DNA from: Polynucleobacter sp. UK-Kesae-W10
GTDB taxonomy: Bacteria > Pseudomonadota > Gammaproteobacteria > Burkholderiales > Burkholderiaceae
Reading direction: 5' to 3'
NCBI RefSeq assembly: GCF_018881575.1
Contig: NZ_JACVQB010000003.1
Location: 1 to 64,000 of the forward strand
DNA: 64,000 nt
Shown here: positions 47,379 through 55,166 of the stretch, piece by piece
Layout: each line of letters starts with the position of its first letter
Numbering within the stretch: the first letter of the stretch is position 1
Notes under the pieces: model-generated
What the model saw: the letters and a program-made list of their open reading frames with translations, nothing else
What the model was told of the DNA's origin: nothing
Database searches by the model: none
Translations under genes and position numbers: made by a program

Positions 47379-48716
47379 ATGGCTGTGCAGATAGAAAATT
47401 TAGGTTCGTTAGACCGCAAAATGACTTTGGAATTCGCTCGTGCCGATTTGGCAAAAGCGCGTGAAACGCGTTTGGCTCAAGTTGGTAAGACCATGAAAGT
47501 AGCAGGCTTTCGTCCAGGAAAAGTTCCAAAGAGCATGGTTGAAAAGCAATACGGCATGCAAGTGGATTACGAACTGCAATTTGATAAAGCTTCTGAACTC
47601 TTTTATGAGCTGAGCCAAAAAGAGGGCGTCAAATTAGCTGGGCAGCCACGTCTCGAGCCAAAGAGTGAGCTCGATGCCGACAAAATCGTATTCGATGCTT
47701 TTTTTGAAGTATTGCCAGAAGTCAAAATTGGTGACTTTAGTAAAGCTGAAGTAACAAAGTACACAACTGAGATTGGTGAAGCAGAAATTGACCGTGCAAT
47801 TGATGTATTGCGCAAGCAGCAAGTGCATTACCATCCACGTGGCCAGGCTGGCGCGCATGGTGACGGCGGCTCTAATCTTGCTGCCCAAACGGGTGACCAG
47901 GTGGTAATCGATTTCGTGGGCAAGTTAGATGGCGTTGAATTTGCTGGCGGTAAGGCTGATAACTTTGAATTCGTATTGGGCGAGGGCCGTATGTTGCCTG
48001 AGTTTGAAGCAGCTACCTTAGGCCTCAAAGCGGGTGAAAGCAAGACTTTCCCATTGTCATTCCCGGCTGATTACCATGGCAAAGATGTTGCTGGTAAGAC
48101 AGCAGAATTTACGGTTACCGTGAAGTCTGTTAACTGGGCGCATTTACCTGCAGTAGATGATGCCTTCGCATTATCTTTAGGCGTTACTGAAGGTGGCGTT
48201 GCCAAGATGCGTGAAGAAGTGAAGCAGAATTTAGATCGCGAAGTGAAGCGTCGTATTACTTCCTTGTTGAAAAATGAAGTGATGGATAAGTTAAATGCAT
48301 TGTGCGAACTTGAAGTACCAAAATCTTTGGTGGCTTCTGAGCAAGAGCGTTTAGTAGAGGGTGCGCGTCAAGATTTAATGCAACGTGGTGTGCCTAACGC
48401 AAAGGACGCGCCAATTCCTCCAGAGATTTTTGCTGAACAGGCTCTCAAGCGCGTTCGCCTTGGTTTGATCTTGGGTGATCTCGTTAAGAAAAACAATTTG
48501 GCTGCTACCGCCGACCAAATTAAAGCTGAGATTGATGAGCAGGCTGCTACTTACGAAGATCCAAAAGAGGTAGTGCGCTGGTATTACAGCAACCCAGGCC
48601 GATTGAAAGATATTGAGAATTTGGTCTTGGAAGACAATGTGATCAAGCATTTCACTTCCTTAGCCAAGGTGAGTGATAAGCCGATCAGCTTTGAAGAGTT
48701 AAGCAAGCTAAACTAA
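47379..48716 (+). CDS. tig: Trigger factor
   Basis: A ribosome-bound chaperone. N-terminal ribosome-docking domain with FRPGKVPKSMVEKQYG (the GFRxGKxP signature). The FKBP-type PPIase domain, about residues 165-250, starts GDQVVIDFVGKLDGVEF and has LPEFEAATLGLKAGE. The C-terminal helical cradle follows. Length 445 is typical. It begins the tig-clpP-clpX-lon block. Confidence 0.95.
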   Translation: MAVQIENLGSLDRKMTLEFARADLAKARETRLAQVGKTMKVAGFRPGKVPKSMVEKQYGMQVDYELQFDKASELFYELSQKEGVKLAGQPRLEPKSELDADKIVFDAFFEVLPEVKIGDFSKAEVTKYTTEIGEAEIDRAIDVLRKQQVHYHPRGQAGAHGDGGSNLAAQTGDQVVIDFVGKLDGVEFAGGKADNFEFVLGEGRMLPEFEAATLGLKAGESKTFPLSFPADYHGKDVAGKTAEFTVTVKSVNWAHLPAVDDAFALSLGVTEGGVAKMREEVKQNLDREVKRRITSLLKNEVMDKLNALCELEVPKSLVASEQERLVEGARQDLMQRGVPNAKDAPIPPEIFAEQALKRVRLGLILGDLVKKNNLAATADQIKAEIDEQAATYEDPKEVVRWYYSNPGRLKDIENLVLEDNVIKHFTSLAKVSDKPISFEELSKLN

Positions 48717-48749
48717 GACGTCCATTCATTATTTATAAAAGGTCTTGAT

Positions 48750-49379
48750 ATGAACCACTACCAATTTCAATCCGAAGATTTAGAACCTAAAGGTTTGGGT
48801 TTGGTTCCTATGGTGATTGAGACCTCAGGACGTGGTGAGCGCGCCTATGATATTTACTCGCGCTTATTAAGGGAGCGCGTTGTATTTCTCGTGGGCGAAG
48901 TCAATGACCAAACGGCTAATCTGGTGATTGCCCAGCTCTTGTTCCTAGAGAGCGAAAACCCAGATAAAGATATTTCTTTGTATATCAACTCTCCAGGTGG
49001 CTCTGTTTCAGCTGGTTTGGCGATCTACGACACTATGCAGTTCATCAAACCCCATGTCAGCACATTGTGCATGGGTATGGCTGCTAGCATGGGTGCCTTC
49101 CTCTTGTGCGCAGGTGAAAAGGGTAAGCGTTATGCGTTGCCGAATTCCCGTGTCATGATTCATCAACCCCTTGGTGGTGCTCGTGGCCAGGCGTCTGACA
49201 TTGAAATACAAGCACGTGAAATTCTTTACTTGCGTGAACGTCTGAATAAGATTTTGGCTGATCGTACTGGCCAGTCTATTGAGACGATTGCGAAAGATAC
49301 TGACCGTGATAACTTTATGTCTGCAGAGCAGGCTAAAGAGTACGGCTTAATTGACAAGGTTATTGAAAAGCGTCCTTAA
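48750..49379 (+). CDS. clpP: ATP-dependent Clp protease proteolytic subunit
   Basis: A serine protease barrel that partners ClpX. Ser is in [13 protein letters not shown], His in [16 protein letters not shown], and Asp in the downstream strand ([18 protein letters not shown] region). N-terminal propeptide [10 protein letters not shown]... precedes [23 protein letters not shown]. Length 209. AAAAGG Shine-Dalgarno. Confidence 0.96.
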
Positions 49380-49415
49380 TGCTTTTTTCCAATAGATAGA
49401 TATCGAGCGAATACT

Positions 49416-50777
49416 TTGACCGACACTACCAGCACCAATTCCACAGATAAAGTTTTGCATTGTTCTTTTTGTGGAAAAAGTCAGCATGAAGTCAAAAAGC
49501 TGATAGCTGGACCATCCGTCTTTATTTGCGATGAGTGTATTGATCTCTGTACCGACATTATTCAAGAAGAAATCGCCAAGCTTCCTAAGGAAGAGGGCGA
49601 CGATTCTTTGCCTACACCTCACCAGATTCGTGAAAATCTCGATCAATATGTGATTGGTCAGGATCACGCCAAGAAAACCTTGGCAGTTGCGGTTTATAAC
49701 CACTATAAGCGTTTGCAGTATTTGCCAAAACCCAAAAAAGAGAAGTTGGATAAGGATGGCAAGCCTGTAGAGGCGGCTGATAAGAAAGATTCTAAGACCC
49801 CTGCTAAGGCCATTGTGGATGGTGTGGAGTTGGCTAAAAGTAATATCTTGCTCATTGGCCCAACTGGTTCAGGCAAAACACTGTTAGCGCAAACGCTAGC
49901 TCGCATGCTTGACGTTCCATTTGTCATGGCTGATGCGACGACTTTGACAGAAGCTGGCTATGTTGGTGAAGACGTTGAAAATATTATTCAAAAGCTTTTG
50001 CAGGCTTGTGATTACAACGTTGAAAAAGCGCAGCGTGGCATTGTTTATATCGATGAGATTGATAAGATCTCTCGCAAATCAGATAACCCATCTATTACGC
50101 GTGATGTTTCTGGCGAAGGTGTTCAGCAGGCTTTGCTGAAACTAGTTGAAGGCACTATGGCGTCGGTGCCACCACAGGGTGGACGCAAGCATCCAAACCA
50201 AGACTTCTTACAAGTTGATACCACGAATATTTTGTTTATTTGTGGTGGTGCATTTGATGGTCTTGAAAAAGTGATACAACAACGCACCGCTAAAACAGGT
50301 ATTGGTTTTAATGCATCTGTTCCTGGTAAAGATGATCGTGGCGTAAGTGATTTGTTGATTGAGGTTGAACCCGAGGATTTGATTAAGTTTGGTTTAATTC
50401 CGGAGTTAATTGGTCGCTTACCTGTTGTTGCTACTTTGGCGCAACTTGATGAAGAGGCTTTGATTCAAATTTTGACTGAGCCTAAGAATGCTTTAGTAAA
50501 GCAATACCAGGCTTTACTGACCATGGAAGGCTCAGAGCTTGAAGTGCGCCGTGAAGCCCTCTCAGCGATTGCCAAGAAGGCGATTGCTCGTAAAACGGGT
50601 GCGCGTGGTCTTCGATCCATTCTTGAGGGCTCGTTGATGGACGTAATGTATGACCTTCCATCTCTCAAAAACGTGCAAAAGGTCGTTATTGACGAGGCGA
50701 GCATTGCGGAGGGTGGTAAGCCCTTATTGGTCTACAAACAAGATCTAGATCAGTCCGATTTGAGCAAAAAAGCCTAA
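49416..50777 (+). CDS. clpX: ATP-dependent Clp protease ATP-binding subunit ClpX
   Basis: A hexameric AAA+ unfoldase. The N-terminal C4 zinc finger is CSFCGKSQ...[10 protein letters not shown]. Walker A is [13 protein letters not shown], Walker B is [10 protein letters not shown], and the pore loop is near [10 protein letters not shown]. An insert [15 protein letters not shown] precedes the AAA+ core. The start must be TTG at 49416, 16 residues before the first zinc Cys; no ATG is in frame upstream. Length 453, a little longer than E. coli. Confidence 0.95.
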
Positions 50778-50966: not shown

Positions 50967-53399
50967 ATGCCTGGCCACTTATTACTACCCTCTGAGCCGA
51001 TTCAACTACCGTTACTTCCCCTGCGGGATGTCGTTGTATTTCCCCACATGGTGATCCCATTGTTTGTGGGACGTCCTAAATCGATTAAAGCGCTCGAAGC
51101 TGCCATGGAAACTGGCAAGAATGTTCTTTTGGTCGCTCAAAAGACGGCGGCTAAAGATGAGCCTGGAATTGAAGACCTGTATGAGGTAGGTTGCATTGCA
51201 AATATCTTGCAAATGCTCAAACTTCCTGATGGCACTGTGAAGGTGCTTGTTGAAGGTGTGCAACGTGCAGAGGTGAGTCAAATTGAAGATGCGCTCGGTT
51301 ACTTCAATTGTGAAGCAACGCCGACAGCAATGAATGCAATCGATGCACATGAAACAGAAGCCTTACGTCGCGCCATCATGGCACAGTTTGATCAATACGT
51401 AAAACTGAATAAAAAAGTACCCCAAGAAATTCTGTCTTCCTTAGGCGGCATTGATGACCCGAGCCGTTTGGCGGACACCATCTGCGCACATCTGCCAGTT
51501 AAGCTGGAGCAAAAGCAACGCTTGTTAGAGATGACGGATGTTGTCCAACGCTTAGAAAGCCTCTTGGCTGATCTCGAGAGTGAGATCGATATTTTGCAAG
51601 TTGAGAAAAGAATCCGCGGCCGTGTTAAACGCCAAATGGAAAAGAGCCAACGCGAGTACTACCTCAATGAGCAAGTAAAAGCCATTCAGAAGGAATTGGG
51701 CGAAGGAGAAGAGGGCGCTGACCTGGAGGAATTGGAAAAGCGTATCAAAGCTGCCCGTATGCCAAAAGAGGCTTTAAAAAAGGCCGAGTCTGAGCTCAAA
51801 AAACTGAAGCTGATGTCACCCATGTCTGCTGAGGCAACCGTGATTCGTAACTTTATTGATACCTTGGTCAATCTTCCCTGGAAGAAAAAGACCAAAATCA
51901 ATAACGATCTTACCAACGCTGAAAAGGTGTTGGATGAAGATCACTATGGTTTAGATAAGGTTAAAGAACGTATTTTGGAGTACCTCGCTGTGCAACAGCG
52001 AGTAGATCGCGTCAAGGCGCCCATTTTGTGTTTAGTGGGTCCTCCTGGAGTTGGTAAGACTTCCTTGGGTCAATCGATTGCTCGCGCAACTAATCGTAAA
52101 TTTGTGCGTATGGCCTTAGGAGGCGTACGTGATGAATCCGAAATTCGCGGTCATCGCCGTACTTATATTGGGTCTATGCCTGGCAAGATCCTGACTAGCT
52201 TAACTAAAGTTGGTGTCCGTAATCCATTATTCCTGTTGGATGAGGTAGATAAGATGGGCATGGATTTCCGGGGCGATCCTGCTAGTGCATTACTGGAGGT
52301 TTTGGACCCAGAGCAAAACCATACTTTCCAAGATCACTATGTAGAAGTGGACTTCGATCTCTCTGATGTGATGTTCGTTGCCACCTCAAATTCGTTGAAT
52401 ATTCCTGGCCCGCTATTGGACCGCCTCGAAATTATTCGCTTGGCTGGCTACACCGAAGATGAGAAGACTAGCATCGCGGTAAATTATTTGATTCCCAAAC
52501 AAATCAAGAACAATGGTTTGAAGAAGGACGAGCTCAAGATTGAGGATAGCGCCGTTCGAAATATGATTCGCTACTACACCCGAGAAGCTGGCGTGCGCTC
52601 TCTCGAACGAGAAATCAGCAAGATCTGCCGCAAAGTAGTCAAGCTTTTGCTCTTGAAAAAAGAGGCTGCCCCTGTAGTTGTCAATGCAGACAATTTAGAG
52701 AAGTTCCTATCTGTTCGCATGTACGACTTTGGTTTGGCTGGCAAAGAAAATCAAGTTGGTCAGGTGACTGGTTTGGCTTGGACTGAAGTGGGTGGAGATT
52801 TGCTCACGATTGAAGCGGCTGTTATGCCTGGTAAGGGTGTGATTACTCGTACCGGTTCGATTGGCGACGTGATGAAAGAATCCGTTGAAGCCGCTCGCAC
52901 CGTGGTTCGATCCAGGGCAAAGCGCCTAGGGATTGCTGATGAGTCTTTTGAGAAGAAAGATATTCATATTCACTTCCCGGATGGTGCAACTCCAAAGGAT
53001 GGTCCCTCAGCAGGTATTGCAATCACTACTGCATTGGTTTCCGTATTCACTGGTATTCCAATTCGTTCCGATGTTGCTATGACTGGTGAGATTACCTTGC
53101 GTGGTGAAGTGCTTCCGATCGGCGGTTTAAAAGAAAAGCTCTTGGCAGCGCATCGTGGCGGCATTAAGTTAGCTTTGATACCAGAGGAAAATGTGAAGGA
53201 TTTGATTGATATTCCTGACAACGTCAAGAATGCCATTGAGATTATTCCGGTTCGCTGGATTGATAAGGTGCTTGAACTTGCTCTTGAACGTATGCCTGAA
53301 GCCTTGCCTGAGCCTACGCCTGAGGAGTTGGCCAAAAAGGCTGCTGAAGCAAGCAAAGCCACGGGCAGCGCCCCTTCTGGGGACGTGCTAAAGCACTAA
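50967..53399 (+). CDS. lon: ATP-dependent protease La
   Basis: A single-chain AAA+ protease. N-terminal substrate domain LPLLPLRDVVVFPHMVIPLFVGR is followed by coiled-coil residues around 200-260. Walker A is GPPGVGKTSLGQ, Walker B is PLFLLDEVDKM. The Ser-Lys dyad lies in DGATPKDGPSAGIAI and the Lys of the GGLKEKLLAA block. Length 810. Shine-Dalgarno TGGAGGA precedes the ATG. A low-complexity Pro/Ala-rich tail ends the chain. Confidence 0.96.
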   Translation: MPGHLLLPSEPIQLPLLPLRDVVVFPHMVIPLFVGRPKSIKALEAAMETGKNVLLVAQKTAAKDEPGIEDLYEVGCIANILQMLKLPDGTVKVLVEGVQRAEVSQIEDALGYFNCEATPTAMNAIDAHETEALRRAIMAQFDQYVKLNKKVPQEILSSLGGIDDPSRLADTICAHLPVKLEQKQRLLEMTDVVQRLESLLADLESEIDILQVEKRIRGRVKRQMEKSQREYYLNEQVKAIQKELGEGEEGADLEELEKRIKAARMPKEALKKAESELKKLKLMSPMSAEATVIRNFIDTLVNLPWKKKTKINNDLTNAEKVLDEDHYGLDKVKERILEYLAVQQRVDRVKAPILCLVGPPGVGKTSLGQSIARATNRKFVRMALGGVRDESEIRGHRRTYIGSMPGKILTSLTKVGVRNPLFLLDEVDKMGMDFRGDPASALLEVLDPEQNHTFQDHYVEVDFDLSDVMFVATSNSLNIPGPLLDRLEIIRLAGYTEDEKTSIAVNYLIPKQIKNNGLKKDELKIEDSAVRNMIRYYTREAGVRSLEREISKICRKVVKLLLLKKEAAPVVVNADNLEKFLSVRMYDFGLAGKENQVGQVTGLAWTEVGGDLLTIEAAVMPGKGVITRTGSIGDVMKESVEAARTVVRSRAKRLGIADESFEKKDIHIHFPDGATPKDGPSAGIAITTALVSVFTGIPIRSDVAMTGEITLRGEVLPIGGLKEKLLAAHRGGIKLALIPEENVKDLIDIPDNVKNAIEIIPVRWIDKVLELALERMPEALPEPTPEELAKKAAEASKATGSAPSGDVLKH

Positions 53400-53514: not shown

Positions 53515-53590
53515 GGGCGCTTAGCTCAGTTGGTAGAGCGTCTGCCTTACACGCAGAATGTCGGGAGTTCGAGCCTCTCAGCGCCCACCA
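53515..53590 (+). tRNA. tRNA-Val (anticodon TAC)
   Basis: Acceptor GGGCGCT/AGCGCCC, D arm TAGCTCAGTTGGTAGAGCG, anticodon stem TCTGC/GCAGA with loop CTTACAC giving TAC, T arm GGAGTTCGAGCCTC. Discriminator A and encoded CCA. It lies between lon and the PpiD-like gene. Confidence 0.95.
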
Positions 53591-53702: not shown

Positions 53703-55166
53703 ATGTTTGATACCGTACGTAAGCATCAAAAAATACTTCAGCTTGTACTGATGTTATTCATTGTTCCATCCTTTGTGATGTTTGGTATTTCAAGCTATTC
53801 CGGTTTTCTGGATAAAGAAACTGACCTGATCAAAGTGAACGGCAAGCCAATTACCGCTCAAGAAGTTGATACGGCAGCCAAGCGCCAGGCCGAACGTGTG
53901 GGCGGTAGTCTGCAAATCGCCCAAAGCTTGCAATTTCGTCAAGCGATTCTGAATGAGTTACTGCAGCAGCGTATTTTAGGTTTTGCTGTAGTTAATCTAC
54001 GCCTTCAAGTGGGTAAAGAAGCTCTCATTAAAAGTTTGCAGAATATTCCACAGATTCGCGCGATGTATCGTCAAGATGGAAGTTTTGATGACGCACGCTT
54101 TAAACAATTGCTAGCCAACAATGGCATCAATGAAGAGCAGTTTTATGCCAGTCAGGCTTTTGATTTAAAAATTGGCCAGCTAGTAAACTCAGTAGCGCGC
54201 ACTGAAATCGGTACGCCAAAGCTTGCTGAGATCGTGTCAACCCTGTATGAAACAGAACGTCAGGTACAAGCAATGTCCTTTGATGCCAAAGACTTCCTTG
54301 GCAAGGTGAATCCAAGCCAGGAAGAGCTACAGGCTTTTTACAATGCAAATACCAAACTCTTTGAGAGTCCGGAATATGTTGATGTCGAATATATTGTGTT
54401 GAAAGCAGATCCCAAAGAAGATGCCAAGTCTTTTAGCGATAAAGCAGATCAATTTGCTAATTTGACCTATGACCAGTCTGACAGCCTCAAGCCTGCGGCT
54501 GACAAATTAAAGCTTAATGTACAAACCCAAAAGGGTTTGACTCGCTCTGGCCCAATGGGTGTCTCTAAAGATCACCCTTTAGCAAGCCCTAAAGTAGTTC
54601 AGTCACTTTTTGGTGATGAGGCGCTAAAGAACAAGCGAAATATTGAAGCAGTGCAAACCGCTCCTGGTGTTTTTGTATCGGCTCGGGTTATTACCTTTCA
54701 CCCCGCGCAAATCATGCCTTACAAAGAGGTTGCCTCGGAAGTGAAACGTCAAGTTAGTCAACGCGCAGCAGAAAAGCTAGCGGTAGCTGCAGCAGCAGAG
54801 CGATTTGCTGTTTTACAGAAGGACCCTAAAGTTTCCAGCGGATTTGCTGCCCCTATCTGGGTGTCTCGCAACAAGCCCGCTAATTTAATTGGCCCAGCCC
54901 TTGATGATGTGATGTCTATTAATTCAGATCAGTTGCCGGCAGTCGTTTCAGTGAGCAATCCTGGAGTTGGTACTACCTTGTATCGCGTGGATCAAGTGCG
55001 TCAGCCTGCTGGTGTGGATACAAAGATTCATAAAGCACAAGCGCAGCAAATCCAAGCCTTAAATGCTCAAGCTGAATTTGCCAGCTTTATGGGTTACTGG
55101 CGTGATGCTGCCGCAGTCAAAGTCATCAACCCATTAAAGCCACTCTCAAGTGGGGTCGGCAGTTAA
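53703..55166 (+). CDS. PpiD-like periplasmic chaperone lacking the parvulin domain
   Basis: An inner-membrane-anchored SurA_N_3/PpiD-family protein of 487 residues. One TM helix (about 11-30), then the N-terminal chaperone domain (IKVNGKPITAQEVDTAAKR, LNELLQQRILGFAV, FDDARFKQLLANNGINEEQF). Around residues 205-234 it reads VNPSQEELQAFYNANTKLF, EYIVLKAD as in full-length PpiD. It then jumps to FANLTYDQSDSLKPAADKL, which in ordinary PpiD (about 620-640 residues) follows the parvulin PPIase domain. The PPIase domain appears cleanly missing, about 150 residues, with the frame intact. It probably acts as a pure holdase chaperone. Confidence 0.78.
   Translation: MFDTVRKHQKILQLVLMLFIVPSFVMFGISSYSGFLDKETDLIKVNGKPITAQEVDTAAKRQAERVGGSLQIAQSLQFRQAILNELLQQRILGFAVVNLRLQVGKEALIKSLQNIPQIRAMYRQDGSFDDARFKQLLANNGINEEQFYASQAFDLKIGQLVNSVARTEIGTPKLAEIVSTLYETERQVQAMSFDAKDFLGKVNPSQEELQAFYNANTKLFESPEYVDVEYIVLKADPKEDAKSFSDKADQFANLTYDQSDSLKPAADKLKLNVQTQKGLTRSGPMGVSKDHPLASPKVVQSLFGDEALKNKRNIEAVQTAPGVFVSARVITFHPAQIMPYKEVASEVKRQVSQRAAEKLAVAAAAERFAVLQKDPKVSSGFAAPIWVSRNKPANLIGPALDDVMSINSDQLPAVVSVSNPGVGTTLYRVDQVRQPAGVDTKIHKAQAQQIQALNAQAEFASFMGYWRDAAAVKVINPLKPLSSGVGS

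Follow-up and report, generated by a model that had tools for sequence, protein, structure and literature searches.

The gene analysed here lies in a 64,000-nucleotide stretch of DNA from Polynucleobacter sp. UK-Kesae-W10, the whole of which we call the window, in the order tig-clpP-clpX-lon-(tRNA-Val)-ppiD, compared with lon-hupB-ppiD in E. coli K-12 (Table 1). A Pfam search identified SurA-like N-terminal domains in the encoded protein, namely PF13624 (residues 1–160, 101.9 bits) and PF13623, and the NCBIfam model for PpiD, PRK10788.1, gave a partial match only, with its best stretch at residues 2–247 and 100 bits against a cut-off of 493. On the basis of these N-terminal domains, the partial NCBIfam match, the locus and the best fold match, which is to the PpiD–YfgM complex (see below), the open reading frame was assigned as a PpiD orthologue. 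The confirmed PpiD features include the SurA-like N-terminal domain behind an N-terminal membrane helix, the position after lon, and a second domain, a third domain and a C-terminal helix that are homologous to those of full-length PpiD. Since neither PF00639 nor PF13616 is found and PRK10788.1 scores far under its cut-off, the window protein is an orthologous variant of PpiD and not a full member by domain content.

Table 1 Features of the ppiD locus in the window, with residue numbers of the PpiD protein
Feature	Position	Strand	Remarks
tig, clpP, clpX (syntenic block upstream)	47379..50777	+	
lon	50967..53399	+	PRK10787.1, 1273.5 bits
tRNA-Val(tac)	53515..53590	+	between lon and ppiD, the site of hupB in E. 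coli K-12
ppiD orthologue without canonical parvulin domain	53703..55166	+	487 aa plus stop
N-terminal transmembrane helix, residues 9–33	53727..53801	+	AF2 helix, partly of low confidence; topology presumed from the PpiD family
NC (SurA_N-like) domain, N-terminal part, residues 38–184	53814..54254	+	PF13624; AF2; name from the available text of PMC9643414
"Second" domain, N-terminal part, residues 185–224	54255..54374	+	AF2 against full-length model; borders read by eye
"Third" domain, residues 225–333, uninterrupted; apparently parvulin-like fold, without canonical PPIase motifs	54375..54701	+	PF13145; VIA-align; post-parvulin similarity
Junction, residues 237–250	54411..54452	+	14 aa (165 in Massilia L188, including the parvulin domain); alignments
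"Second" domain, C-terminal part, residues 334–437	54702..55013	+	AF2
C-terminal helix, residues 440–477	55020..55133	+	AF2 helix 440–469

The sequence-only reading had proposed that the parvulin domain is precisely missing between two conserved blocks, and the residue numbers that it gave are correct, EYIVLKAD occupying residues 229–236 and FANLTYDQ starting at residue 251. Relative to full-length relatives, a single large gap lies between VEYIVLKAD and FANLTYDQ, with both flanks aligning well, and the stretch between the blocks is 14 residues long in the window protein versus 164 to 168 residues in the five full-length relatives for which it was determined. The absence of the domain was borne out in an alignment of 32 members (A3), where PF00639 and PF13616 matched all six full-length PpiDs (including Massilia L188) and none of the 26 short ones; in the window protein neither family was found up to an E-value of 1. 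"Precisely" is nevertheless an overstatement, because the ~150 residues that are gone comprise two tethering helices besides the parvulin core. When the AlphaFold2 (AF2) model of the window protein is set against that of L188, neither the helix before the core nor the beginning of the long helix behind it is present, and strand 225–234 runs directly into helix 241–257. The motifs SHIL and GYHI, which we take to be the parvulin histidine motifs, served for a motif comparison; the histidine motifs of an active parvulin are absent from the window protein, and the strands of the third domain that were read as corresponding carry VEYIVL and GVFVSARV.

A consistent picture comes from sequence matches within the family. 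In its own genus the window protein matches as a single piece, and among the matches listed from other genera of the family it matches in two pieces (~1–237 and 240–483), which fall mostly within frames of ~640–690 aa, the exceptions being the short genera g21 and g22. Residues from ~240 to ~483 align downstream of the parvulin domain of the full-length genes, with ~30–42% identity over the matches listed and 35 to 42% among the family matches listed.

An HMM match to a parvulin family inside residues 230–380 had been named as the finding that would count against a deletion, and formally there is one, as PF13145 (Rotamase_2) matches residues 204–343 with 38.7 bits (cut-off 27.0). The matched region, however, is the flanking third domain. 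The loss is not overturned by this match, because residues 221–338 resemble the segment that follows the parvulin domain in 10/10 full-length relatives (scores 168 to 253, z 26 to 46), and not the parvulin domain of the same relatives (scores 27 to 32, z -0.3 to 1.1). These data bear directly on the alternative that the parvulin domain is still there in degenerate form, with residues 225–340 representing the old PPIase domain and another segment having been lost. The PF13145 match and the parvulin-like fold of the third domain speak for it, and so does BLASTP, which pairs window residues 230–351 with residues 235–375 of E. coli PpiD, parvulin region included; taken alone, this BLASTP alignment is misleading. 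Given the post-parvulin similarity in all ten relatives, the alignment of residues from ~240 onward after the parvulin domain of full-length genes among the matches listed, and an hhalign probability of 0.1 between the profiles of the third domain and the canonical parvulin, this reading is largely refuted and we regard it as very unlikely. In a full-length PpiD with the parvulin domain masked, a weak PF13145 match appears at 207–344 (19.7 bits, under the cut-off), and in six unmasked full-length PpiDs the best PF13145 match (~247–383) is the canonical domain. In several short forms PF13145 is absent or under the cut-off.

The third domain itself seems to be parvulin-like in its predicted fold. 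VIA-align superposes window residues 222–335 on 8sot (Z 7.5, 3.3 Å, 103 residues) and residues 220–333 on Par14 3ui4 (Z 7.2, 3.1 Å, 90 residues), Z values of 7.2 to 7.6 being, according to the tool's note, in a common range where chance is possible. Since hhalign finds no kinship between the two profiles, what points to a common origin of the third domain and the canonical parvulin is the fold together with the PF13145 match.

The AF2 model of the window protein has a mean pLDDT of 84.5 (86.1 for the full-length relative), and save for the missing block the order of elements is nearly alike in the models of the window protein and L188. Its pTM is only 0.51, and therefore the arrangement of the domains is unsure. 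In both Foldseek (E 4.1e-10) and VIA-align (Z 12.4 over 409 residues, rmsd 11.6) the best PDB match is 8zht_A, from the PpiD–YfgM complex, which differs in being a chain of 663 residues with 11 to 14% sequence identity to the window protein. A phmmer search of the window protein against PDB sequences returned one row at chance level, and a profile built from 16 short PpiDs retrieved SurA without any PpiD chain.

To what extent the short form is a property of the genus was assessed in 186 Polynucleobacter genomes, 177 of which have a match, including all 144 good genomes; the nine without a match are incomplete. Sequences from genomes of this genus are identical to named Polynucleobacter records, as with L010 and L181 or L014 and L159, which identifies the genus. 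Read by eye, the junction is crossed in one piece in 175 of the 177 matches, and the other two stop at contig edges. The genus members have the same length, so that the length is no assembly error, which had been a reservation of the sequence-only reading. That the short form is an artefact of assembly, frameshifting or annotation, or that the gene is decaying, has a negligible probability in our view: no support for it was found, the same form recurs across many separate assemblies, a sizeable share of which consist of one contig, and also in named isolates, the frame in the window has no internal stop, and the median dN/dS is 0.043. This value (range 0.023 to 0.103) was obtained from 46 sequences of 487 aa, for 40 pairs with dS of 0.05 to 1.2, which are not independent: the set contains four pairs of identical sequences, probably genomes present in both of two collections, and although these four pairs are not among the 40, their copies are. 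By region, dN/dS is 0.030 in the NC domain, 0.046 in the third domain and 0.075 in the second. The short form is thus under strong purifying selection throughout the genus. The genus-wide occurrence, this selection, the retention of the membrane helix, N-terminal domain and C-terminal helix, and the presence of a YfgM gene all support the earlier proposal of a natural deletion in a lineage where the isomerase is dispensable. We infer that the isomerase may indeed be dispensable here, in a genome that encodes other parvulins.

The initial reading undersold the case, since a tree of the flanking regions indicates that the same loss recurs in other lineages. Several other Burkholderiales lack the same block: family f18 (uncultured MAGs), the four related MAG loci L126–L129 (three of them labelled Rhodocyclaceae), the sampled genomes of g21 and g22, which belong to the same family as Polynucleobacter, and G487 (f44), two congeners of which, G571 and G808, retain the block. 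Beyond the Burkholderiales but still in the class, short forms were found among the matches listed at L224/L225, L226, L228, L232, L237, L238/L239 and L249/L250, with a congener of L228 (L230) keeping the domain; these come from the best rows of one search and from hand-picked genomes. None of these ten short forms has PF00639 or PF13616 at an E-value of 0.01. By eye, two types of edges can be distinguished: in some proteins (e.g., L088, L224, L228 and L232) the core only is gone, and in Polynucleobacter, f18, L126–L129 and L238/L239 the core and the tethering helices are both gone.

Trees were built from the flanks only, excluding rows that end at contig ends (L051, L065, L087 and L190). The first, with 56 hand-picked rows, requires five changes between the two forms, three of them forced by well-supported (starred) branches; the second, with 62 hand-picked members of the class, requires ten, at least six of which are forced by well-supported branches, and 9 to 11 are needed in its bootstrap trees. 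In tests of groups that were named after the tree had been seen, a single clade of all short rows was rejected (p 3e-7), a clade of Polynucleobacter with g21/g22 was weakly rejected (p 0.037), and a clade of Polynucleobacter with f18 was not rejected at 5% (AU test, p 0.051). We infer that the direction of change was loss and not gain, because the full form is widespread; the change counts are silent on direction. One ancestral loss common to Polynucleobacter and f18, which would be compatible with the explanation that we favour, is suggested by their nearly identical break points and by the AU test. However, the two belong to different families by their assigned codes, f18 joins full-length rows with supports of 96/94 (56-row tree) and 86/92 (62-row tree), and the clade of all short rows is rejected as above; we thus consider a shared loss rather unlikely. 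As the domain is gone genus-wide and was lost independently in several lineages, PpiD probably works without it.

Several small genomes were noted in this sampling. Short PpiDs occur in genomes of 1.0 to 2.1 Mb (L249 and L250 of f96, L238 and L239 of f79, and L237 of f76). Genome reduction was considered as a rule for the loss and discarded, given that the small genomes G596, G682 and G010 (1.2 to 1.3 Mb) keep the domain. The PpiD at L094 (G811, a genome of 0.8 Mb) is of full length, with a degenerate-looking parvulin region that scores 20.0 bits for PF00639, under the cut-off; here the domain may be in the course of being lost.

Genomes were also inspected for partner proteins and other parvulins. 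The YfgM family (PF09976) is present in 38/38 genomes examined, the copy in the window's genome being at G000:C1:920204-920806. A check for SurA, which the sequence-only reading had called for, showed that this genome encodes a SurA with two parvulin domains. Besides SurA it has three stand-alone parvulins, with frames of 277, 283 and 285 aa. These could be taken to suggest that the parvulin domain left ppiD by domain fission and survives elsewhere in the genome as a stand-alone protein. In the parvulin tree, however, 17 PpiD parvulin domains cluster together (support 91/87, not starred; recovered in 88% of bootstrap trees) in a group that holds 0/7 Polynucleobacter parvulin domains in the tree (all five of G000 and two of G274), and the 277-aa parvulin falls with stand-alone parvulins from genera with a full-length PpiD. 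Because none of the Polynucleobacter parvulins in the tree is placed among the PpiD domains, the domain has probably disappeared and not relocated, and we hold fission to be highly improbable. Two of the stand-alone parvulins, L003 (G000:C1:614003) and L004 (G000:C3:225675), do not have the usual histidine motifs (SDIAV and SQIVL instead) and may, judging from these motifs, be inactive.

Overall, the window protein is very probably a working PpiD holdase at the Sec exit, whose parvulin domain was deleted in frame before the genus radiated and which would need no isomerase. It would be a single-span inner-membrane protein whose periplasmic NC domain, along with the nested second and third domains, would serve together with YfgM to hold emerging chains. 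The canonical parvulin domain, which in other PpiDs interrupts the third domain and is flanked there by two tethering helices, would have been removed, and the third domain would have closed into one uninterrupted parvulin-like fold devoid of PPIase motifs. Binding of YfgM and SecYEG and holding of emerging chains are expected as in E. coli PpiD, without isomerase activity, and isomerisation would be left to SurA, with its two parvulin domains, and to the stand-alone parvulins. The chaperone activity, the Sec and YfgM binding and the lack of isomerase activity that we propose for the short PpiD are predictions. E. coli PpiD (NP_414975.1) shares with the window protein the locus after lon, the membrane helix, the SurA_N-like NC domain, the second and third domains and the C-terminal helix, with ~23% identity in the best local alignment, but it has a parvulin domain, which the model of PMC9643414 (available text) puts between F261 and K360. 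According to the same text, the YfgM contact of E. coli PpiD lies in the NC domain, including its C-terminal helix, and the SecG contact is at F122. The regions for both contacts have counterparts in the window protein, its C-terminal helix being the counterpart of the part of the NC domain that touches YfgM in E. coli (role from the available text of PMC9643414).

The best reading is that the window protein may be viewed as the natural counterpart of the engineered E. coli PpiD-deltaParv, likewise a PpiD minus its parvulin domain (PMC2956729, Matern et al. 2010, available text), with the difference that the latter was made in the laboratory and the natural form is genus-wide and also without the two tethering helices. 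In the available text of that study, PpiD-deltaParv is functional in vivo and protects citrate synthase from aggregation in vitro about twice as well as intact PpiD, and it is present at lower levels and shows slightly poorer complementation in one assay. In the full-length PpiDs of Burkholderiales, both parvulin histidine patterns are found in 18/22 rows and the second in 22/22, unlike in E. coli PpiD. The parvulin domain of the E. coli protein is reportedly inactive, and its role is said to have been disputed since. As the full-length relatives mostly keep the histidine motifs, the missing domain was possibly active, and its removal may be less neutral than the E. coli work suggests. For C. 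jejuni, PpiD is described as active in the available text of PMC5368265.

In sum, a known chaperone has genuinely and repeatedly lost a domain, which does more to support an existing view of PpiD than to overturn one. A literature search, with most subscription journals outside its scope, returned no report of a natural PpiD without the parvulin domain. Lineages without the domain, in which the rest of the protein is under strong selection, indicate, without recourse to any constructed strain, that the part kept is the chaperone. From the break points it can be read which linkers are removable, and the short form offers a smaller subject for structural work on the PpiD–YfgM–Sec complex.

SurA, a soluble periplasmic protein, differs from the window protein in having two parvulin domains in this genome and no membrane anchor. 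The two share the SurA_N-like chaperone module, and in the engineered core SurA N-Ct the parvulins were unneeded in the assay cited in the available text of PMC2956729. SurA with at least one PF00639 match is present in 31 of 32 short-PpiD genomes examined (20/20 and 11/12), the exception being G041, which has a short PpiD and a SurA frame without a PF00639 match. In these counts G608 and G041 were scored as short by frame length and the absence of PF00639 (G608 also by Pfam), and G185 was excluded, its 518-aa frame being SurA with no PpiD seen. A mirror image of Polynucleobacter is found in genus g18 of the same family (L217 at G018:C1:1503500-1508500, and L263–L265), where the SurA frames have 235, 235 and 239 aa and the only PF00639 match per genome sits in a full PpiD (3/3); no Rotamase family was found in the one g18 SurA frame tested. 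The neighbours of the short SurA in L217 are presumably lptD and pdxA-rsmA. We tentatively suggest, as a possible though doubtful generalisation, that the nested ("Russian doll") PpiD carries its parvulin as an optional module that has been excised repeatedly, and that in the PpiD/SurA pair either member can do without its isomerase, though seldom both together, a pattern seen in hand-chosen genomes and without a statistic, in which many full-PpiD genomes keep the SurA parvulins and which G041 breaks. If true, the PpiD/SurA pair would make the role of isomerase domains in periplasmic chaperones testable by natural experiment.

Two further arrangements were observed. G531 (f44) has its sole PF00639 match within the frame of a full-length PpiD (623 aa, C1:1069742). 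In g21 and g22 (L218, L219 and L220), the SurA frames have 326–359 aa and one parvulin match instead of two, alongside a parvulin-less PpiD.
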